DNA from: JBBIVP01 sp037439705 [NCBI: bacterium]
GTDB taxonomy: Bacteria > JBBIVP01
Assembly: GCA_037439705.1 (NCBI GenBank)
Contig: JBBIVP010000143.1
Coordinates: forward strand, 1 to 5,678
DNA: 5,678 bases
Reading direction: 5' to 3'
Every line of letters begins with the position of its first letter. The stretch's first letter is position 1. The notes beneath the pieces are model-generated. The model searched no databases and was not told the DNA's origin. It saw only the letters and a list, made by a program, of their open reading frames with translations. Below, piece by piece: positions 855 to 5,678 of the stretch. The translations under genes were made by a program, and so were the position numbers.

Positions 855-1929
855 TTATTTAATCACCTCTATGTCAAAAGGAGGAAGGGATGTTTCAAAT
901 GGTTGTTCTCCAAGAACCTCTCCAGTTTCCGAATTTACAATAATTATGCCAGATTTTCCTGTTGGTGGTCTAAAAGCTATAAGAAGAAGATTTTGGTATA
1001 ATTCAATGTCTGCCACAGAATAACCGCCAGGAGAGAAAACATCTTTTCTTTTCTTTTCTTCTTCTGGATTGAACTCCACTACCTTTGTATTCTGAAATAA
1101 CAGCATATCCCTTATTATCAGAAAGGATAGCGATGTCGGATATATCCCCTCCGAGTTCCTTTTCTGTAATTATTGTTTCAGAACTTCCCGTTGATGGGTC
1201 AAATTTTTCAACAATTCCATCAGAAATATCAAAGGATGAACCGTGTTCAATGAGGTATATGAATCCATCATTTACATAAAGGGAATCCGAAATAGCCCAT
1301 GGATTTTTTCCATTCAGATTGTGAACCTTTATAACCTCGTCATTTTCTGTATCAATCTCTAAAATTTTCCCATTTCCTGAGGGAGGCCAAAACATCTCAT
1401 TCTGGTTTAGCAACTGAAGTGCAACAAAGAGGTGGTTTTTAAAAACCGCCATTCCAGCCATTTCAGGGAATCCATCCTCATCTGAATATTTTTTCAGGTC
1501 AATCTCCCTTATCTTTTTTCCTGTGAGAGGCTCAATAACAAGAAGGCTTTTTGCCTGAAGCCTTGAAACATAAGCCTTATTTCCTGAAAACGCTATGTCC
1601 TGAGGATTTGTTCCTGCTCCAACGGAAAACTCTGTTACCGGAGAAGAAAAGTTTCTGTTTTTTACATCAATAACCATTATGCTGTCCGAACCATATCTCT
1701 GGACGATATAAGCGTATCCGTTGTAGAACCTTACAACAGCATCAGGATGAACTGGAACGGGGCTGTTTAAAATCCAGACATTTCCGTCTTCTATTTCAAG
1801 AAGGCTGTAGGAACCAGTTTGATAATCCGTAGTTACGACAAAAACATCAGGAACTATCTCCTCCACCTTCTTCTCCTCAGCACACCCTATAAAGAATAGA
1901 ACCGCAAAAATAACTATTGTCTTTTTCAT
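855..1929 (-). pseudogene. Beta-propeller surface lipoprotein (YncE/DUF5074/BtuG-like), interrupted by a frameshift
   Basis: Two overlapping frames (1003-1929 and 855-1106) make up one gene of about 357 codons if one base is skipped near 1082. The N-terminus has a lipoprotein signal: MKK, a hydrophobic core, and FIGC with Cys16. The body has repeated propeller blades: NPQDIAFSGNKAYVSRL followed by SLLVIEPLTGKK; GKILEIDTENDE; GIVEKFDPSTGSS; and, after the shift, KVVEFNPEEE, YSVADIE and IIIVNSETGEVLG. These are the 'd.ia..g..ayV' and 'v.viD..tg' units of YVTN/YncE-type propellers. It starts 12 bp after the btuB stop with an excellent ribosome site, so it is in the btuB operon. Known: BtuG, a DUF5074 propeller lipoprotein of Bacteroides, sits beside BtuB and binds corrinoid at the surface; by position and fold this is the same type of partner (inference). 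In frame, the first piece ends with a basic non-propeller tail (RRRKEKKR), so the product would lack its last blade(s). Sequencing error, decay and programmed shift are all possible. Confidence 0.72.
1043..1064. repeat. Short pentanucleotide tract inside the propeller gene
   Basis: The plus strand carries three consecutive CTTTT units (1043-1057) followed by CTTCTTC; the coding (minus) strand is therefore a pure-purine GAAGAAGAAAAG-type tract. It lies just 3' of the frameshift and encodes EEEKKRK in the downstream frame. A change of one 5-base unit would shift the frame. Confidence 0.6.
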
Positions 1930-1932
1930 CCT

Positions 1933-1944
1933 ATCACCTCCTTA
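1933..1944 (-). promoter_or_regulatory. Ribosome binding site of the propeller lipoprotein, overlapping the btuB stop codon
   Basis: The minus strand reads TAAGGAGGTGAT, a 12-base match to the complement of the 16S rRNA 3' end. Its first three bases are the btuB TAA stop, and GGAGG lies seven bases before the ATG at 1929. This arrangement suits translational coupling to btuB. Confidence 0.85.
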
Positions 1945-3831
1945 CATTATTATTCCCTCCACTTTAACCCCGAACCTCCTTCCAGGGAGAGGAATGGAGT
2001 AGATGTCAACCCATTTTTCATCAAGTATGTTTTCTACATATCCATGAATTCTCACCCCCTTTTTAATTTCTTTTGTTAGATAAATTGAATGCTCTGTTTT
2101 CAAATTTCTTTTTCTCATATTTGCCCTGTCAAGAAAGGTATCTCCCTGAAGGTCAAACTCGTATCTTATGGAGAAATTTTTCAGAAGGTCAAAATTTAAG
2201 AAATAGTGAAGTTCGTGGGATGGCTGTAAGGGTAATCTTTTACCTCTCAAATAATCAATTTTTCCCCTGTCCTCCGTGAAGAGATATGTGTAATTTGCGC
2301 CCGTTTTAAAGGGTGAAAGTTCTAATTCAAAACTTCCCTCAAAACCGAGGATGAATGCCCTTGAGATATTTTCGGGAATGAATGTCCACTGGGAGTTCTG
2401 TGTGTAGGATATAAGATTGACAATATCTCTTTGAAAAAATCCAAGAGACGATTTGAAACCTTTAAACTCTCCGTTCCATTCAACAGATGTCTTTATCCCT
2501 TCCTCCGGTTTAAGGTCGGGATTTCCCATCCATACTCCTCTGTCTCCGAAAAGTTCAAAGAAAGATGGAATCCTTACATACCTTCCAAAACTCATAATTA
2601 TTTTATGGGAAGAAAATTTAAAAATTCCTGATATTGATGGCATAAAGGCGAAATATGAAGAGGAGGTATTCTTTTTTTCAAAATAATAAAGAATTCCAGT
2701 TTCTCCATCTGTTTTTGAAAAATAAAAAACTGCCTGTGGAATAACAGAGAATTTTTTTGAAAAACTGAATTCCGCATCCGAAGACAATCTGACTTCATTT
2801 CTTATAGCATGGAAAGAAAAAGAGGATGGTTTTATGAAAATTGACTTCCATCTCATTCCTGAATAAAGAAGGGAAAAGGAAGGCTGAATTCTTTTAAAGT
2901 TCTTTTTAGAGAAATTAACCCTCATCCCCCCCGATAAAAATTCCTGTTTCACTTCTTCTTTAAAAATTCCAATTTCGCCATCAGGGTCAGAAAAGGTTTC
3001 ATTCTGAATTCCTGTAAAGGGCTGTAAGGAAAGGAAAAACTTTTCATTTTCCAGTTTGAACTCTCCAGCAATAAATCCCCTTTCTGTTTTCAAATCTGTT
3101 TTTTCAGATTGAAGCACATCAGTCCCTGCTATACCCTGTTCCTTTGAGAAAAGGTTTGCTGTAATGGAAAGTGAGATTGAACTTGAAGGACGATATGTGT
3201 ATCTTCCCAGAAAATCAACCCTGTTTGTTGCATTGTTTTTTCTTTTTGAGATGTAGTCATCATAAGGATTGAAGGGAGTTCCGTTTGAATTTCTGTATCT
3301 AAAATCTCCGTCTGTATGAAAAAGGTTGAGATAAAAAAAATATGAGTGTGATAGAAGGTTTCTTATTGAATATCCGGTGAAACTCAATGTTTTGAATGAA
3401 GAAAATTTTCCGCTCAGATAATGAAAGAACTCCCTTCCTTTATCAGGAATAATTATGTTTATTACTCCTCCTATGGATGCAGTTGAAAACTCTGAAGGAA
3501 CAAAATCCTTGGCAATTTCAATTCTTCCTATTCCCTGAAGTGGCAGGTCCTCCATGTTTACGCTTGAATAGGGAGTAAAGGATATTGGAACTCCTTCAAG
3601 GAAAAATTCTGTGTGAGACGGATTTGTTCCCCTTATGCTTATGAGGCTGAATGAACCTTCTGTTCCGGCTCTCCTTACAGTTATTCCGGATTCCTTAGAA
3701 AGAGCATCGGACAATGAATTTTCATTAGGTGATGGAACAATAACCTGAATGACACTTTCTTTTTTTATCTCTCCCTCAACCTCTATGACCGGGATTTCCT
3801 TTGAAATAAAAATTAGAAAAATAAAAAACAT
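1942..3831 (-). CDS. btuB: TonB-dependent outer-membrane cobalamin receptor BtuB
   Basis: A 629-residue TonB-dependent receptor, close to the size of E. coli BtuB (614). It would move cobalamin or another corrinoid across the outer membrane using TonB energy. Seen: a short hydrophobic N-terminus (MFFIFLIFIS), a likely TonB box near 27-33 (VIQVIVP), a plug domain about 36-130 with SLSDALSKESGITV, ISIRGTNPSHTEFFLEGVPI, GIGRIEIAKD and GGVINIII, and then a 22-strand-type barrel. Barrel signatures are RIPSFFELFGD (420-430), NPDLKPEE (437-444), LPLQPSHELHY (533-543) and the terminal VENILDEKW...GRRFGVKVEG. The substrate is assigned from the cobalamin riboswitch directly upstream and the propeller lipoprotein directly downstream; the protein alone would only support 'TonB-dependent receptor'. 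The ATG at 3831 is used because the riboswitch ends just before it. Oddities: the signal peptide has no basic residue before its hydrophobic part, and the last residue is Met where an aromatic is usual. Confidence 0.88.
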   Translation of the reverse strand: MFFIFLIFISKEIPVIEVEGEIKKESVIQVIVPSPNENSLSDALSKESGITVRRAGTEGSFSLISIRGTNPSHTEFFLEGVPISFTPYSSVNMEDLPLQGIGRIEIAKDFVPSEFSTASIGGVINIIIPDKGREFFHYLSGKFSSFKTLSFTGYSIRNLLSHSYFFYLNLFHTDGDFRYRNSNGTPFNPYDDYISKRKNNATNRVDFLGRYTYRPSSSISLSITANLFSKEQGIAGTDVLQSEKTDLKTERGFIAGEFKLENEKFFLSLQPFTGIQNETFSDPDGEIGIFKEEVKQEFLSGGMRVNFSKKNFKRIQPSFSLLYSGMRWKSIFIKPSSFSFHAIRNEVRLSSDAEFSFSKKFSVIPQAVFYFSKTDGETGILYYFEKKNTSSSYFAFMPSISGIFKFSSHKIIMSFGRYVRIPSFFELFGDRGVWMGNPDLKPEEGIKTSVEWNGEFKGFKSSLGFFQRDIVNLISYTQNSQWTFIPENISRAFILGFEGSFELELSPFKTGANYTYLFTEDRGKIDYLRGKRLPLQPSHELHYFLNFDLLKNFSIRYEFDLQGDTFLDRANMRKRNLKTEHSIYLTKEIKKGVRIHGYVENILDEKWVDIYSIPLPGRRFGVKVEGIIM

Positions 3832-4031
3832 GCACCTGCCTATCTCTGCTCGGAGAGCCGAGCAGGTAATACCACGGAACAGGTCTTCCGACTTATGGGA
3901 CGGGCTCGTCCGGCCTTCCCAGAGTTTTCTCCAGTGGCCTCCTGCTCTCAGGCAGGATGAGGACTGCCCTTAGCCCCAATCACGGCCGCGGCACGGTGTC
4001 CGATTCTCACGGACTTCCCTAAATTCCGTGG
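3832..4031 (-). ncRNA. Cobalamin (adenosylcobalamin-type) riboswitch in the btuB leader
   Basis: On the minus strand the leader holds the hallmarks of the cobalamin aptamer. The outer helix P1 is perfect: CCACGGAA (4024-4031) pairs with TTCCGTGG (3872-3879). The B12 box AGTCGGAAGACCTGTT lies at 3878-3893 (consensus AGYCMGGAGACCKGCC). Also present are GAGGCCACTGG (3931-3941), TGGGAAGG (3914-3921) and the hairpin GTCCGTGAGAATCGGAC. P1 closes the aptamer at 3872-4031; positions 3832-3871 form the expression platform before the btuB ATG. The known family effect is that cobalamin binding lowers expression of the downstream uptake gene. There is no run of U after the platform hairpin, so control is probably at translation initiation, not by termination (inference). 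Confidence 0.95.
3834..3867 (-). promoter_or_regulatory. Riboswitch expression platform: hairpin and possible anti-Shine-Dalgarno switch
   Basis: The minus strand forms a perfect 8-bp hairpin CTGCTCGG-CTCT-CCGAGCAG (3846-3865) about 15 bases before the ATG. The ACCTGC at 3862-3867, which overlaps the 5' arm of that hairpin, is also fully complementary to GCAGGT at 3834-3839, which sits at the ribosome site immediately before the start codon. The two pairings compete, giving an open and a closed form. The native ribosome site is weak (AGG at 3839-3841, seven bases from ATG), in contrast to the strong sites of the two lipoproteins, as expected for a regulated start. Confidence 0.6.
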
Positions 4032-4039
4032 CAAACCCC

Positions 4040-4067
4040 ATTTTATTAAAAAAAAAATTAAAGTCAA
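4040..4067 (-). promoter_or_regulatory. Promoter of the riboswitch-btuB operon
   Basis: On the minus strand TTGACT (4062-4067; 5 of 6) and TAAAAT (4040-4045; 5 of 6) are separated by 16 bp consisting almost only of A and T. The expected start is near 4032-4033, one or two bases before the first base of the riboswitch P1 helix, so the transcript would begin essentially with the aptamer. The agreement between promoter position and aptamer start supports both calls. Confidence 0.75.
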
Positions 4068-4140: not shown

Positions 4141-5301
4141 ATGCTTTTCGTCTTTTTCTTTTTAACCATTCCCTGGTTGACATTATGGTTAATGGGGATT
4201 CATCCATCTCCTTTGAATCAGGCACTTTTTTCAGGGCTGGCAATAGTTGGAGCGGGATACATTCTTTCTGAATTCTCCGAGATAGCCCAGCTTGATATCT
4301 CAAAAGGATTTGCCCTTGCTATCATAGCCTTTATTGCAGTTCTTCCCGAGTATGTGGTGGACCTTTATTTTGCATGGATGGCTCCCAAACATCCACATTA
4401 CGCTTCTTATGCAGCTGCTAACATGACCGGAGCAAACAGGCTTCTCATAGGATTTGGATGGTCCATTATTGTTTTTCTTAATTTTTTAAAAACCAAGAAG
4501 AAGGAGGTGGTACTTCAAGAGGGCTTCCGATGGGAAATAGCAATCCTTGCAGTTGCAACCCTATATTCCTTTTCAATCCCCATAAGAGGGCATCTTTCTT
4601 TTGTGGACGCCATTTTTCTTATAGGTTTGTTTGGATTTTATGTTTATAAAACTGCAAGGGGAAAGGTTGAGGAGATTGAAGTTGAAACATTTATTTTCCA
4701 GTTCATGGAGTCCATTTCCAAAGTCAAAAGGGTAATTTTAATAACAATTGGATTCCTCTACGGAGGTTTTATAGTTTTTATATCCGCAGAGCACTTTGCG
4801 GAAGGATTGTTAAAGGTGGGAGAATCTTTCAAAATAGAAAAGTTTCTTCTTGTTCAGTGGCTTGCTCCTCTTGCTTCGGAATCTCCAGAACTTATTGTTG
4901 CAATTTTCTTTGTTCTTAAAAGAAAAGCGGAAAACGGTTTGGGGATGCTCGTTTCATCAAAGATAAATCAGTGGACCCTTCTGATTGGATGCATCCCTGT
5001 TGTTTACGGAATTTCCGGACTGACCCTTCATCCCCTTGAATTGGATATGAGGCAGAATGAGGAGATTTTGTTAACATCCGCCCAGTCTCTTTTCGCACTC
5101 GTTATTCTGTCCGAACTTGACCTTGACCTGAAAGAGGCAGTTCTTCTATTTCTATTATTTTTCGTTCAACTTCTCCTTCCCAATCCCCATACCCGCCTTA
5201 TTTTCTCCTTTATCTACCTCGGATTTTCTTTTCTTTTCTTTATTGGCTCAAAAAGAAAAAGGACTGGATTTTTTACTCTGAGAAAAGGTCTCAAATTTTA
5301 G
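4141..5301 (+). CDS. CaCA-family cation exchanger (sodium/calcium exchanger-type membrane protein)
   Basis: A 386-residue polytopic inner-membrane protein with about ten or eleven hydrophobic segments and the two inverted alpha-repeats of the Ca2+/cation antiporter superfamily. Repeat 1 (~56-112) has AFIAVLPEYVVDLYF (Pro69-Glu70) followed by AAANMTGANRLLIGFGW. Repeat 2 (~238-290) has LAPLASESPELIVAIF (Pro249-Glu250) followed by SSKINQWTLLIG. The 'PE' acidic residues and the 'N.tGaN / SSKiNqw' helices correspond to the family's cation-binding 'S.PE' and 'GN..GSN..N' motifs. A charged loop (~115-125 and ~172-196) separates the halves. It would exchange Ca2+ or another cation for Na+ or H+; which one is not determined by sequence. 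The ATG at 4141 has only a weak ribosome site (AGAGA just upstream), and Met18 at 4192 is an alternative, though the first helix supports 4141. It is transcribed divergently from btuB, with no evident functional link. A TATATT at 4082-4087 might be its -10 box, without a good -35. Confidence 0.82.
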   Translation: MLFVFFFLTIPWLTLWLMGIHPSPLNQALFSGLAIVGAGYILSEFSEIAQLDISKGFALAIIAFIAVLPEYVVDLYFAWMAPKHPHYASYAAANMTGANRLLIGFGWSIIVFLNFLKTKKKEVVLQEGFRWEIAILAVATLYSFSIPIRGHLSFVDAIFLIGLFGFYVYKTARGKVEEIEVETFIFQFMESISKVKRVILITIGFLYGGFIVFISAEHFAEGLLKVGESFKIEKFLLVQWLAPLASESPELIVAIFFVLKRKAENGLGMLVSSKINQWTLLIGCIPVVYGISGLTLHPLELDMRQNEEILLTSAQSLFALVILSELDLDLKEAVLLFLLFFVQLLLPNPHTRLIFSFIYLGFSFLFFIGSKRKRTGFFTLRKGLKF

Positions 5302-5357: not shown

Positions 5358-5678
5358 GTGCTTCTACAACACAATTTTTTTCCTTTATATTTTTACTTTT
5401 CTTTGTTGAGCAGTAATGTTAAAAATTTTGGTTACAGTAGGCACTATAAATTACTAAAAAATCTCAGTGTTCCAGTGCCACCCCTTGAAACCCAGCGCCG
5501 CATAGCTTCTTACCTCAAAGAAAAAATGTCTTATGCAGAAAAACTCCGCACTGAAACTGAAAAGCAATTAGAAGCAATAAACGCCTTGCCTCGGGCAATT
5601 TTAAGAAAGGCTTCAGGGGGTAACTGTAAAAAAACACAACATTTACTTGACAAAATTTCTTACAATAATATAATATAG
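5358..5678 (+). pseudogene. hsdS: Remnant of type I restriction-modification specificity subunit (HsdS), C-terminal end
   Basis: This 106-codon frame holds only the end of an HsdS protein, the subunit that chooses the DNA target of a type I restriction-modification complex. Seen: YFYFSLLSSNVKNFG (~11-25), then YSRHYKLLKNLSVPVPPLETQRRIASYL (~26-53), the standard junction from the second target-recognition domain to the conserved helix, then the coiled-coil KMSYAEKLRTETEKQLEAINALPRAILRKA (~56-85). A full HsdS has about 400 residues with two recognition domains; everything upstream is missing, and a TGA at 5346-5348 closes the frame on the left. The end is also damaged: HsdS proteins commonly finish KAFRG or KAFRGEL, whereas here the frame runs on as KASGGNCKK. 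Restoring one T near 5613 gives KAFRG and a TAA at 5621-5623. No hsdM or hsdR is present in the window. The first ~10 codons have no recognisable homology. Confidence 0.85.
5647..5674 (+). promoter_or_regulatory. Perfect-consensus sigma-70-type promoter reading out of the right edge
   Basis: TTGACA (5647-5652) and TATAAT (5669-5674) are both exact consensus boxes, separated by 16 bp. Transcription would begin near 5681-5682, just past the window. The promoter lies within the out-of-frame tail of the hsdS remnant, which supports that tail being non-coding. What it drives cannot be seen; promoters this close to consensus often serve stable RNA or other strongly expressed genes. Confidence 0.7.

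Follow-up and report, generated by a model that had tools for sequence, protein, structure and literature searches.

Is the capping of a vitamin B12 receptor by a β-propeller lipoprotein, as in the BtuB-BtuG pair (BtuBG) of Bacteroides, confined to Bacteroidota? The question is raised by a 5,678-nucleotide stretch of contig JBBIVP010000143.1 (assembly GCA_037439705.1), here called the window, in which a cobalamin riboswitch is followed by a gene for a TonB-dependent receptor and a gene for a BtuG-type propeller lipoprotein, an arrangement that recurs in other phyla. We think it likely that the three form a B12-repressed corrinoid uptake unit with a BtuG-like lid propeller, in an outer-membrane bacterium that is probably not a member of the Bacteroidota. 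According to two papers from 2018 and 2023, BtuG and lipoprotein-capped TonB-dependent transporters are, or seem to be, exclusive to Bacteroidetes and are tied to competition in the gut (PMC6143338, PMC10404256), and the basis for this statement about BtuG was a set of 313 gut genomes searched with a BlastP cut-off of 1e-10 (PMC6143338). As far as the accessible text of the open-licence literature extends, we found no report of BtuG or BtuG-like pairs outside Bacteroidota.

A riboswitch, a receptor and a propeller gene on one strand

All coordinates are in window numbering, and the B12 unit lies wholly on the minus strand (Table 1). The cobalamin riboswitch that the initial annotation had placed ahead of the receptor is confirmed, since the aptamer, at 71.9 bits, clears the RF00174 gathering score of 31.5, and so is the gene order: the receptor comes after the riboswitch, and the propeller reading frame begins 12 bp past the receptor's TAA stop codon, which is overlapped by AAGGAGGTGA.

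Read through both of its frames, the propeller protein (357 residues, folded together with 17 relatives) is predicted to form a single propeller (predicted local distance difference test (pLDDT) 88.3, predicted template-modelling score (pTM) 0.87) whose strands group into seven blades. The 13 best Protein Data Bank (PDB) chains in Foldseek are all BtuG (E 9.6e-15 to 1.1e-11), with Lp49 close behind (2.5e-11), and the 11 best entries in VIA are likewise all BtuG (Z 29.4-31.1, root-mean-square deviation 2.8-3.2 over 299-305 residues, 16-18% identity). Next in VIA come a YVTN protein from an archaeon at 27.8, the nitrous oxide reductases near 27 and the B12 binder BtuK1 at 25.3, and further down YncE (24.7) and XusB (24.6-24.8), the last standing 4.6 to 6.5 Z units under BtuG. 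The matches to nitrous oxide reductase, YVTN protein, hydrazine synthase and Lp49 probably reflect a shared fold only. Profile comparison points the same way. A profile built from the window protein together with 17 relatives, none from Bacteroidota (A3), was compared with the PDB. Nine distinct sequences led (8.6e-9 to 2.5e-8), of which seven are BtuG by title and two, 8puj and 8baz, carry generic names and are taken for BtuG; the next match was Lp49 (5.4e-3), and XusB (9hqe) was not among the matches listed at E ≤ 1. On fold and PDB profile, BtuG is thus the favoured candidate for closest characterised relative of the propeller family.

Leaving aside the start methionine and the lipid-bearing cysteine of the propeller, 31 of the 38 most conserved positions fall within residues 57-255, which on our own assignment from the model would correspond to blades 1-4 and make up 58% of the mature length. 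Conservation just before the inner strands is modestly raised (2.03 compared with 1.67 bits; 25 of 321 circular shifts are equally high). In BtuG2, blades 1 to 4 are reported to hydrogen-bond B12 (PMC10404256).

The promoter and ribosome-binding sites of the initial annotation held up in part. Sigma-70-like hexamers are indeed present (two such sites in a 401-base region, compared with 0.5 ± 0.8 in shuffles), but their role as the promoter of the unit is doubtful: in the Rfam alignment they run into the aptamer's 5' edge, and transcription beginning some 7 nt past the -10 box would remove the 5' arm of P1. Strong Shine-Dalgarno sites precede the propeller gene and the next gene, which encodes a PKD-domain lipoprotein; that of the receptor is weak, just AGG at 3 nt before the ATG. 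A translational switch, in which the 8-bp hairpin between aptamer and start codon would take part, is possible. The RNA fold of 3885-3826 reaches -21.5 kcal/mol (z -1.85; 10 of 200 shuffles did equally well), and a complementarity spotted by eye would let ACCTGC (3867-3862) pair instead with GCAGGT (3839-3834).

Table 1. Features of the window, with their positions, strands and supporting evidence.
Feature	Position	Strand	Evidence or description
Sigma-70-like hexamers, TTGACT-16-TAAAAT	4040..4067	-	consensus scan, 10/12
Cobalamin riboswitch aptamer, RF00174	3861..4055	-	cmscan 71.9 bits, E 8e-17, full-length model match
Putative expression platform	3833..3867	-	8-bp hairpin 3865-3846, adjoins GGCAGGTG before receptor ATG
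BtuB-like TonB-dependent receptor, 629 aa	1942..3831	-	Pfam PF00593 and PF07715 above cut-off
BtuG-like propeller lipoprotein, first frame	1003..1929	-	lipobox FFIGC, Cys16
Rest of the same propeller gene, second frame	855..1106	-	family C-terminus TSLPPFDIEV
PKD-domain lipoprotein, 135 aa	311..718	-	PF00801 E 4.1e-7
Sodium/calcium exchanger gene	4141..5301	+	PDB chain 4kpp_A, E 1.5e-103
Fragment like type I restriction specificity subunit	5358..5678	+	PF01420 E 1e-5; cut by window end

Distribution of the pair

Scanning a genome collection with the receptor alignment returned 61 loci, 27 of them non-Bacteroidota and 34 Bacteroidota as counted from their labels; this is a sample and not a census, because a single peptide motif was used. 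Of the 27 non-Bacteroidota loci, 22 have a propeller of the window family adjoining the receptor; 19 of these propellers were found with the window protein alone and three (L020, L023 and L064) only with a profile built from the 19. By label, the 22 belong to Thermodesulfobacteriota, Deltaproteobacteria, Gemmatimonadota, Latescibacterota, Acidobacteria, Spirochaetes, Planctomycetota, Gammaproteobacteria and relatives; the Gemmatimonadota or the Latescibacterota label may be wrong, since the proteins of the two are so alike. The five loci without a propeller are L006, whose contig stops at the receptor, and four from Negativicutes: L043, where the stretch stops with the receptor, and L035, L044 and L046, with open reading frames (ORFs) of about 1,700 residues. 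Together with L004, these last three Negativicutes receptors share such long ORFs, extra N-terminal sequence and no adjoining family propeller.

The riboswitch recurs with the pair. RF00174 exceeded its threshold in 19 of the 22 loci scanned for it (L005-L025 and L054; the misses are L007, L012 and L016); 21 of these 22 loci hold a propeller, and 18 of those 21 a riboswitch. Propeller matches also occur in 18 of the 34 Bacteroidota receptor loci, and RF00174 was found in none of the 11 of these that were scanned, nine of which hold an XusB-like propeller.

A second survey took the propeller profile as its starting point, with each phylum named after the label of its centre genome and riboswitch linkage counted by hand from the listed places. 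In the phylum of the Thermodesulfobacteriota centre, 27 of 247 genomes match; among the 22 hits kept, from 20 genomes (at least 150 bits, two training genomes excluded), 18 have a receptor within 1.5 kb, and in 14 a cobalamin riboswitch is encoded on the same strand, at most 6.5 kb to the 5' side. The five hits that scored weakly (1.5e-7 to 4.4e-4) are accompanied by neither. One case from the survey (G054) lies on a contig of more than 3.39 Mb, too long for mis-binning to account for it. Around the Spirochaetes centre, 43 of 198 genomes match; three weak hits and the training genome were excluded, and of the 39 that were kept, 12 have a riboswitch above threshold in the position just defined, with six more below threshold; a receptor match falls within 1.5 kb in 11 of the best 19 loci, the training genome again excluded. 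The third phylum, that of L006, has matches in 25 of 46 genomes; with one weak hit excluded and hits down to 61 bits counted, 17 of the 24 genomes kept have a riboswitch in that position, and a receptor is present within 1.5 kb in nine of the best ten loci. By our own arithmetic, from typically 1-8 riboswitches per 2-6 Mb genome, chance linkage would amount to about 1% or fewer per random gene. Only the centre matches among the 299 genomes of the phylum of the gammaproteobacterial centre (0 of the 298 others), so the profile does not catch propellers at large.

Several arrangements in these surveys differ from that of the window. In the phylum of L006, propeller genes stand immediately after the riboswitch in, for example, G809, G812 and G813, and two propeller genes stand in tandem after it in G795, G797, G801 and G814, possibly as two lids or as a lid and a second binder. 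One genome from the phylum of the Spirochaetes centre (G365) has 19 cobalamin riboswitch matches, 11 of them on a single contig (C22). A genome scan with the window propeller alone, in which the patterns were exact 8-residue peptides, returned no relative, and plasmid searches gave remote matches only; receptor and propeller adjoin in two of the plasmid records, which are from Bacteroidota and both XusB-like.

The genes around the pair bear on its ligand. In two scans of hand-picked neighbours, which are not a census, the 20 flanking ORFs comprised nine of B12-type families, two ExbB, three other parts of ATP-binding cassette (ABC) transporters (in L016, a permease of the ABC-3 family, and in L021), three unrelated (a GerE regulator, SdrD_B and a molybdopterin oxidoreductase) and three without match. 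In L010, a periplasmic binding protein, a FecCD permease and an ATPase (BtuF/C/D-like) lie between riboswitch and propeller in one operon, and in L009 a periplasmic binding protein lies upstream of the receptor. Other stretches carry CobD/CbiB (L011), a CobB/CbiA-type amidotransferase (L014), a cobalamin adenosyltransferase (L019), and a cobW-like GTPase with a DBI_PRT phosphoribosyltransferase, presumably of the CobT type (L023); ExbB occurs in L007 and L010. Neighbours and riboswitches together point to corrinoid far better than position alone.

Ligand, location and origin

By analogy with BtuBG, we infer that the propeller binds corrinoid, lies at the cell surface and contacts the receptor. 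When corrinoid is scarce, the riboswitch would permit expression of the messenger; the lipid-anchored propeller would cap the outer face of the receptor as a lid, bind corrinoid in the pocket at the centre of its top face, and pass the cargo to the receptor on lid closure; the receptor would then draw it in, powered through TonB. Such a "pedal bin" scheme has been proposed for Bacteroides BtuBG (PMC10404256).

A number of observations weigh against this reading, and a first set concerns the receptor. It is a TonB-dependent receptor with plug and barrel by its Pfam domains, both above cut-off, and by its fold matches. Its top NCBIfam model is TIGR01779 (TonB-B12) at 95.1 bits, short of the equivalog cut-off of 599.7, and the second is a siderophore receptor model at 81.6. 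The best PDB sequence match is XusA (9gbc, 3.5e-17), ahead of E. coli BtuB (1nqf, 2.2e-15). For the structure model (pLDDT 81.9, pTM 0.82), VIA puts BtuB1 from the BtuB1G1 complex at the top (Z 37.3), level with the pyrroloquinoline quinone (PQQ) receptor PqqU (36.9), and PqqU and FecA rank first in Foldseek, so that PQQ and citrate receptors stand beside BtuB among the best folds. The fold does not separate BtuB from other TonB-dependent receptors, and since XusA, BtuB, PqqU and FecA are all among the best sequence or fold matches, the receptor taken by itself leaves the ligand unnamed; that the receptor is BtuB we infer. A scan of viral contigs with the receptor gave no match.

Curated models tell little about the propeller, for which no Pfam family rises above cut-off. 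Among the checks proposed with the initial annotation, the fold prediction of the repaired propeller and the survey of btuB neighbourhoods came out in favour of a BtuG-like protein, but the profile search did not: DUF5074 (PF16819) has no match at E ≤ 1 in either frame. Among 18 family members, three match DUF5074 at E ≤ 0.1 (best 4.1e-6). The best PDB sequence matches of the first frame by phmmer are BtuG chains, at a weak E of 0.015. The published definition of BtuG is a BlastP E ≤ 1e-10 to BT1490, BT1954 or BT2095 (PMC6143338), and the phmmer search, which included Bacteroides BtuG chains and served as a proxy, does not reach that value. The A3 match to BtuG spans a single stretch of about 100 residues; the BtuG1 chains (8ptd, 8ptf and 8blw_B) are not among the 59 listed PDB matches of A3 at E ≤ 1; and the Foldseek template-modelling scores fail to split BtuG (0.66-0.70) from XusB (0.68). 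The propeller is a divergent BtuG relative, not BtuG by the published criteria.

XusB itself bears on a different ligand. A control profile of 11 propellers from Bacteroidota receptor loci (A4), nine of them in the riboswitch-scanned loci and two outside that scan, had initially been read as BtuG; it was relabelled XusB-like, because the 11 scanned Bacteroidota loci are without riboswitch and the profile finds XusB first (1.4e-13), with BtuG-type chains from 1.5e-3. A BtuG reference profile (A5) was assembled from ten rows that by our reading stand directly beside a receptor, out of 19 places matching DUF5074; L066 and L067, the strongest DUF5074 matches, which are longer and lie elsewhere in the same operons, were excluded. 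Nine of the ten A5 loci stand behind a riboswitch, the exception being L071. In profile-profile comparison, A3 is nearer to the XusB-like A4 (4.5e-30) than to BtuG (4e-19), and in a tree of the propellers, made by a quick method, the XusB-like proteins fall among the non-Bacteroidota rows with weak support (82). With the ranking of XusA above BtuB, these results would suit a pair that imports another ligand, for instance a siderophore as XusAB does, with the riboswitch incidental. We regard this as very unlikely: XusB is absent from the A3 matches listed at E ≤ 1 and lies below BtuG in VIA; DUF4374 (PF14298), the mark of XusB, has no match at E ≤ 1 in either frame of the window propeller; riboswitch linkage was seen in three phyla as opposed to none of the 11 Bacteroidota loci; and cobamide genes lie alongside the pair.

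The tree also bears on where the pair comes from. Bacteroidota BtuG stands on a long branch of its own (support 100) that takes in no other rows, the XusB-like proteins form one long branch, and the non-Bacteroidota rows lie outside both. For the deep order of the tree, the approximately unbiased (AU) test rejects neither a clade of the window protein with BtuG (p 0.201) nor one of all non-Bacteroidota rows (p 0.35); it can safely be stated from profile comparison that BtuG, XusB and the window propeller family belong to one superfamily. A recent transfer of the known BtuB-BtuG pair from Bacteroidota, or a host that is itself a member of the Bacteroidota, would be compatible with the first of these AU results, but it is highly improbable given the separate BtuG branch and the closest relatives of the pair: it is other phyla that supply the nearest receptors (at best 3e-62) and propellers (at best 6e-43 by blastp), and the best Bacteroidota matches reach 1e-16 and 2.5e-6, respectively. 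The suggestion that this is a pairing in another lineage is thus borne out by its close relatives as far as sequence similarity can tell, but the notion of an isolated or freshly transferred pair is not; judged by that similarity, the window pair belongs to a divergent family that extends over several phyla. Against our reading it must be said that nearly all of the 22 loci are metagenome-assembled genomes by label and that labels can be wrong, and that the link is looser in the other eight of the 19 Spirochaetes loci, which have no receptor match within 1.5 kb; one flanking ORF of each was scanned, and none gave a match to any receptor family.

The export of the propeller is a further difficulty. 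Its lipobox, FFIGC with Cys16 near the N-terminus, was read from the sequence by eye, and CAEEKK comes after it. Outside Bacteroidota, outer-membrane lipoproteins mostly face the periplasm, and the lid reading leaves surface export there unexplained. By our own pattern, a lipobox is present in ten of the 22 receptor-linked non-Bacteroidota propellers and absent in 12; a dockerin model is matched by three of 18 family members and a CFI-box C-terminal model by one, so anchoring seems to vary. From the alignment, the dockerin-like ends were assigned to L008, L009 and L012, and the CFI-box to one of L011, L014 and L015. A propeller that sits as a lipoprotein in the inner leaflet and takes corrinoid in the periplasm after the receptor would accord with the usual orientation and with the missing lipoboxes, but we hold it to be unlikely: the operon of L010 already has a periplasmic binding protein, permease and ATPase beside the propeller, the dockerin and CFI-box ends suggest an outside location, and the fold matches the BtuG lid best. 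For Bacteroidetes, a lipoprotein export signal for surface display has been described (PMC6143338). Finally, the window propeller gene has one frame break, near 1085-1110, beyond which the second frame reaches 855, and is in this form a broken copy; the break may be a sequencing error or a recent mutation.

Flanking genes, known systems and implications

The gene next past the propeller encodes the PKD-domain lipoprotein of Table 1, in which no B12 domain was seen; BtuH2 of Bacteroides is reported to have PKD domains as well (PMC8941943). The divergent exchanger gene, on the other strand, has its match in a chain that we take to be the Archaeoglobus exchanger, and matches at E ≤ 1e-20 in 46 of the 297 genomes of the phylum of the Acidobacteria centre, with a best identity of 50%, which does not place the window in a phylum.

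Fold, profile and neighbourhood all point to the BtuB-BtuG-like arrangement that the initial annotation had proposed. With Bacteroides BtuBG (PDB 8bmx, 8blw, 8p97, 8okv and 3dsm) the window pair has in common riboswitch control, a receptor gene beside a propeller gene, a lipoprotein signal and a seven-bladed propeller, and BtuG is the best fold and PDB profile match of the latter. The pair also has the position expected of BtuG, next to btuB in a corrinoid-riboswitch locus, in so far as the receptor is BtuB. It differs in the low identity of the structural alignment, in the missing DUF5074 match, and in that the relatives of its family are in other phyla, some without lipobox by pattern. The XusA-XusB xenosiderophore transporters of Bacteroides (DUF4374; 9gbc, 9hqe and 9hqk) likewise combine a receptor with a propeller lipoprotein of the same superfamily, and XusA is the best PDB sequence match of the window receptor, but they differ in their lower VIA scores and in that none of the 11 scanned Bacteroidota loci has a cobalamin riboswitch; the iron-siderophore ligand of XusAB is described as sitting off the central pocket (PMC13142918). 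E. coli BtuB, a close fold match of the window receptor, is likewise a TonB-dependent B12 receptor, but one without a lid, and E. coli is without BtuG (PMC8941943). Accessory B12-binding proteins of the DUF4465/BtuJ type are reported from several phyla, and their fold is a β-jellyroll, not a propeller (PMC13398666).

A riboswitch-linked homologous pair in Thermodesulfobacteriota, Spirochaetota, Gemmatimonadota, Acidobacteriota and others would, if true, overturn the restriction of such pairs to Bacteroidetes. In our judgement there is about an even chance that corrinoid uptake by propeller-capped B12 receptors is old and crosses phyla, with BtuG, and perhaps the XusB-type siderophore lids, as specialised offshoots; the family would then predate the gut lifestyle, which is the published explanation for such lids (PMC6143338, PMC10404256). 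The recurrence of the pair, if true, would also suggest a function for the many propeller proteins without a curated model name, and the evolution of receptor lids would become testable.

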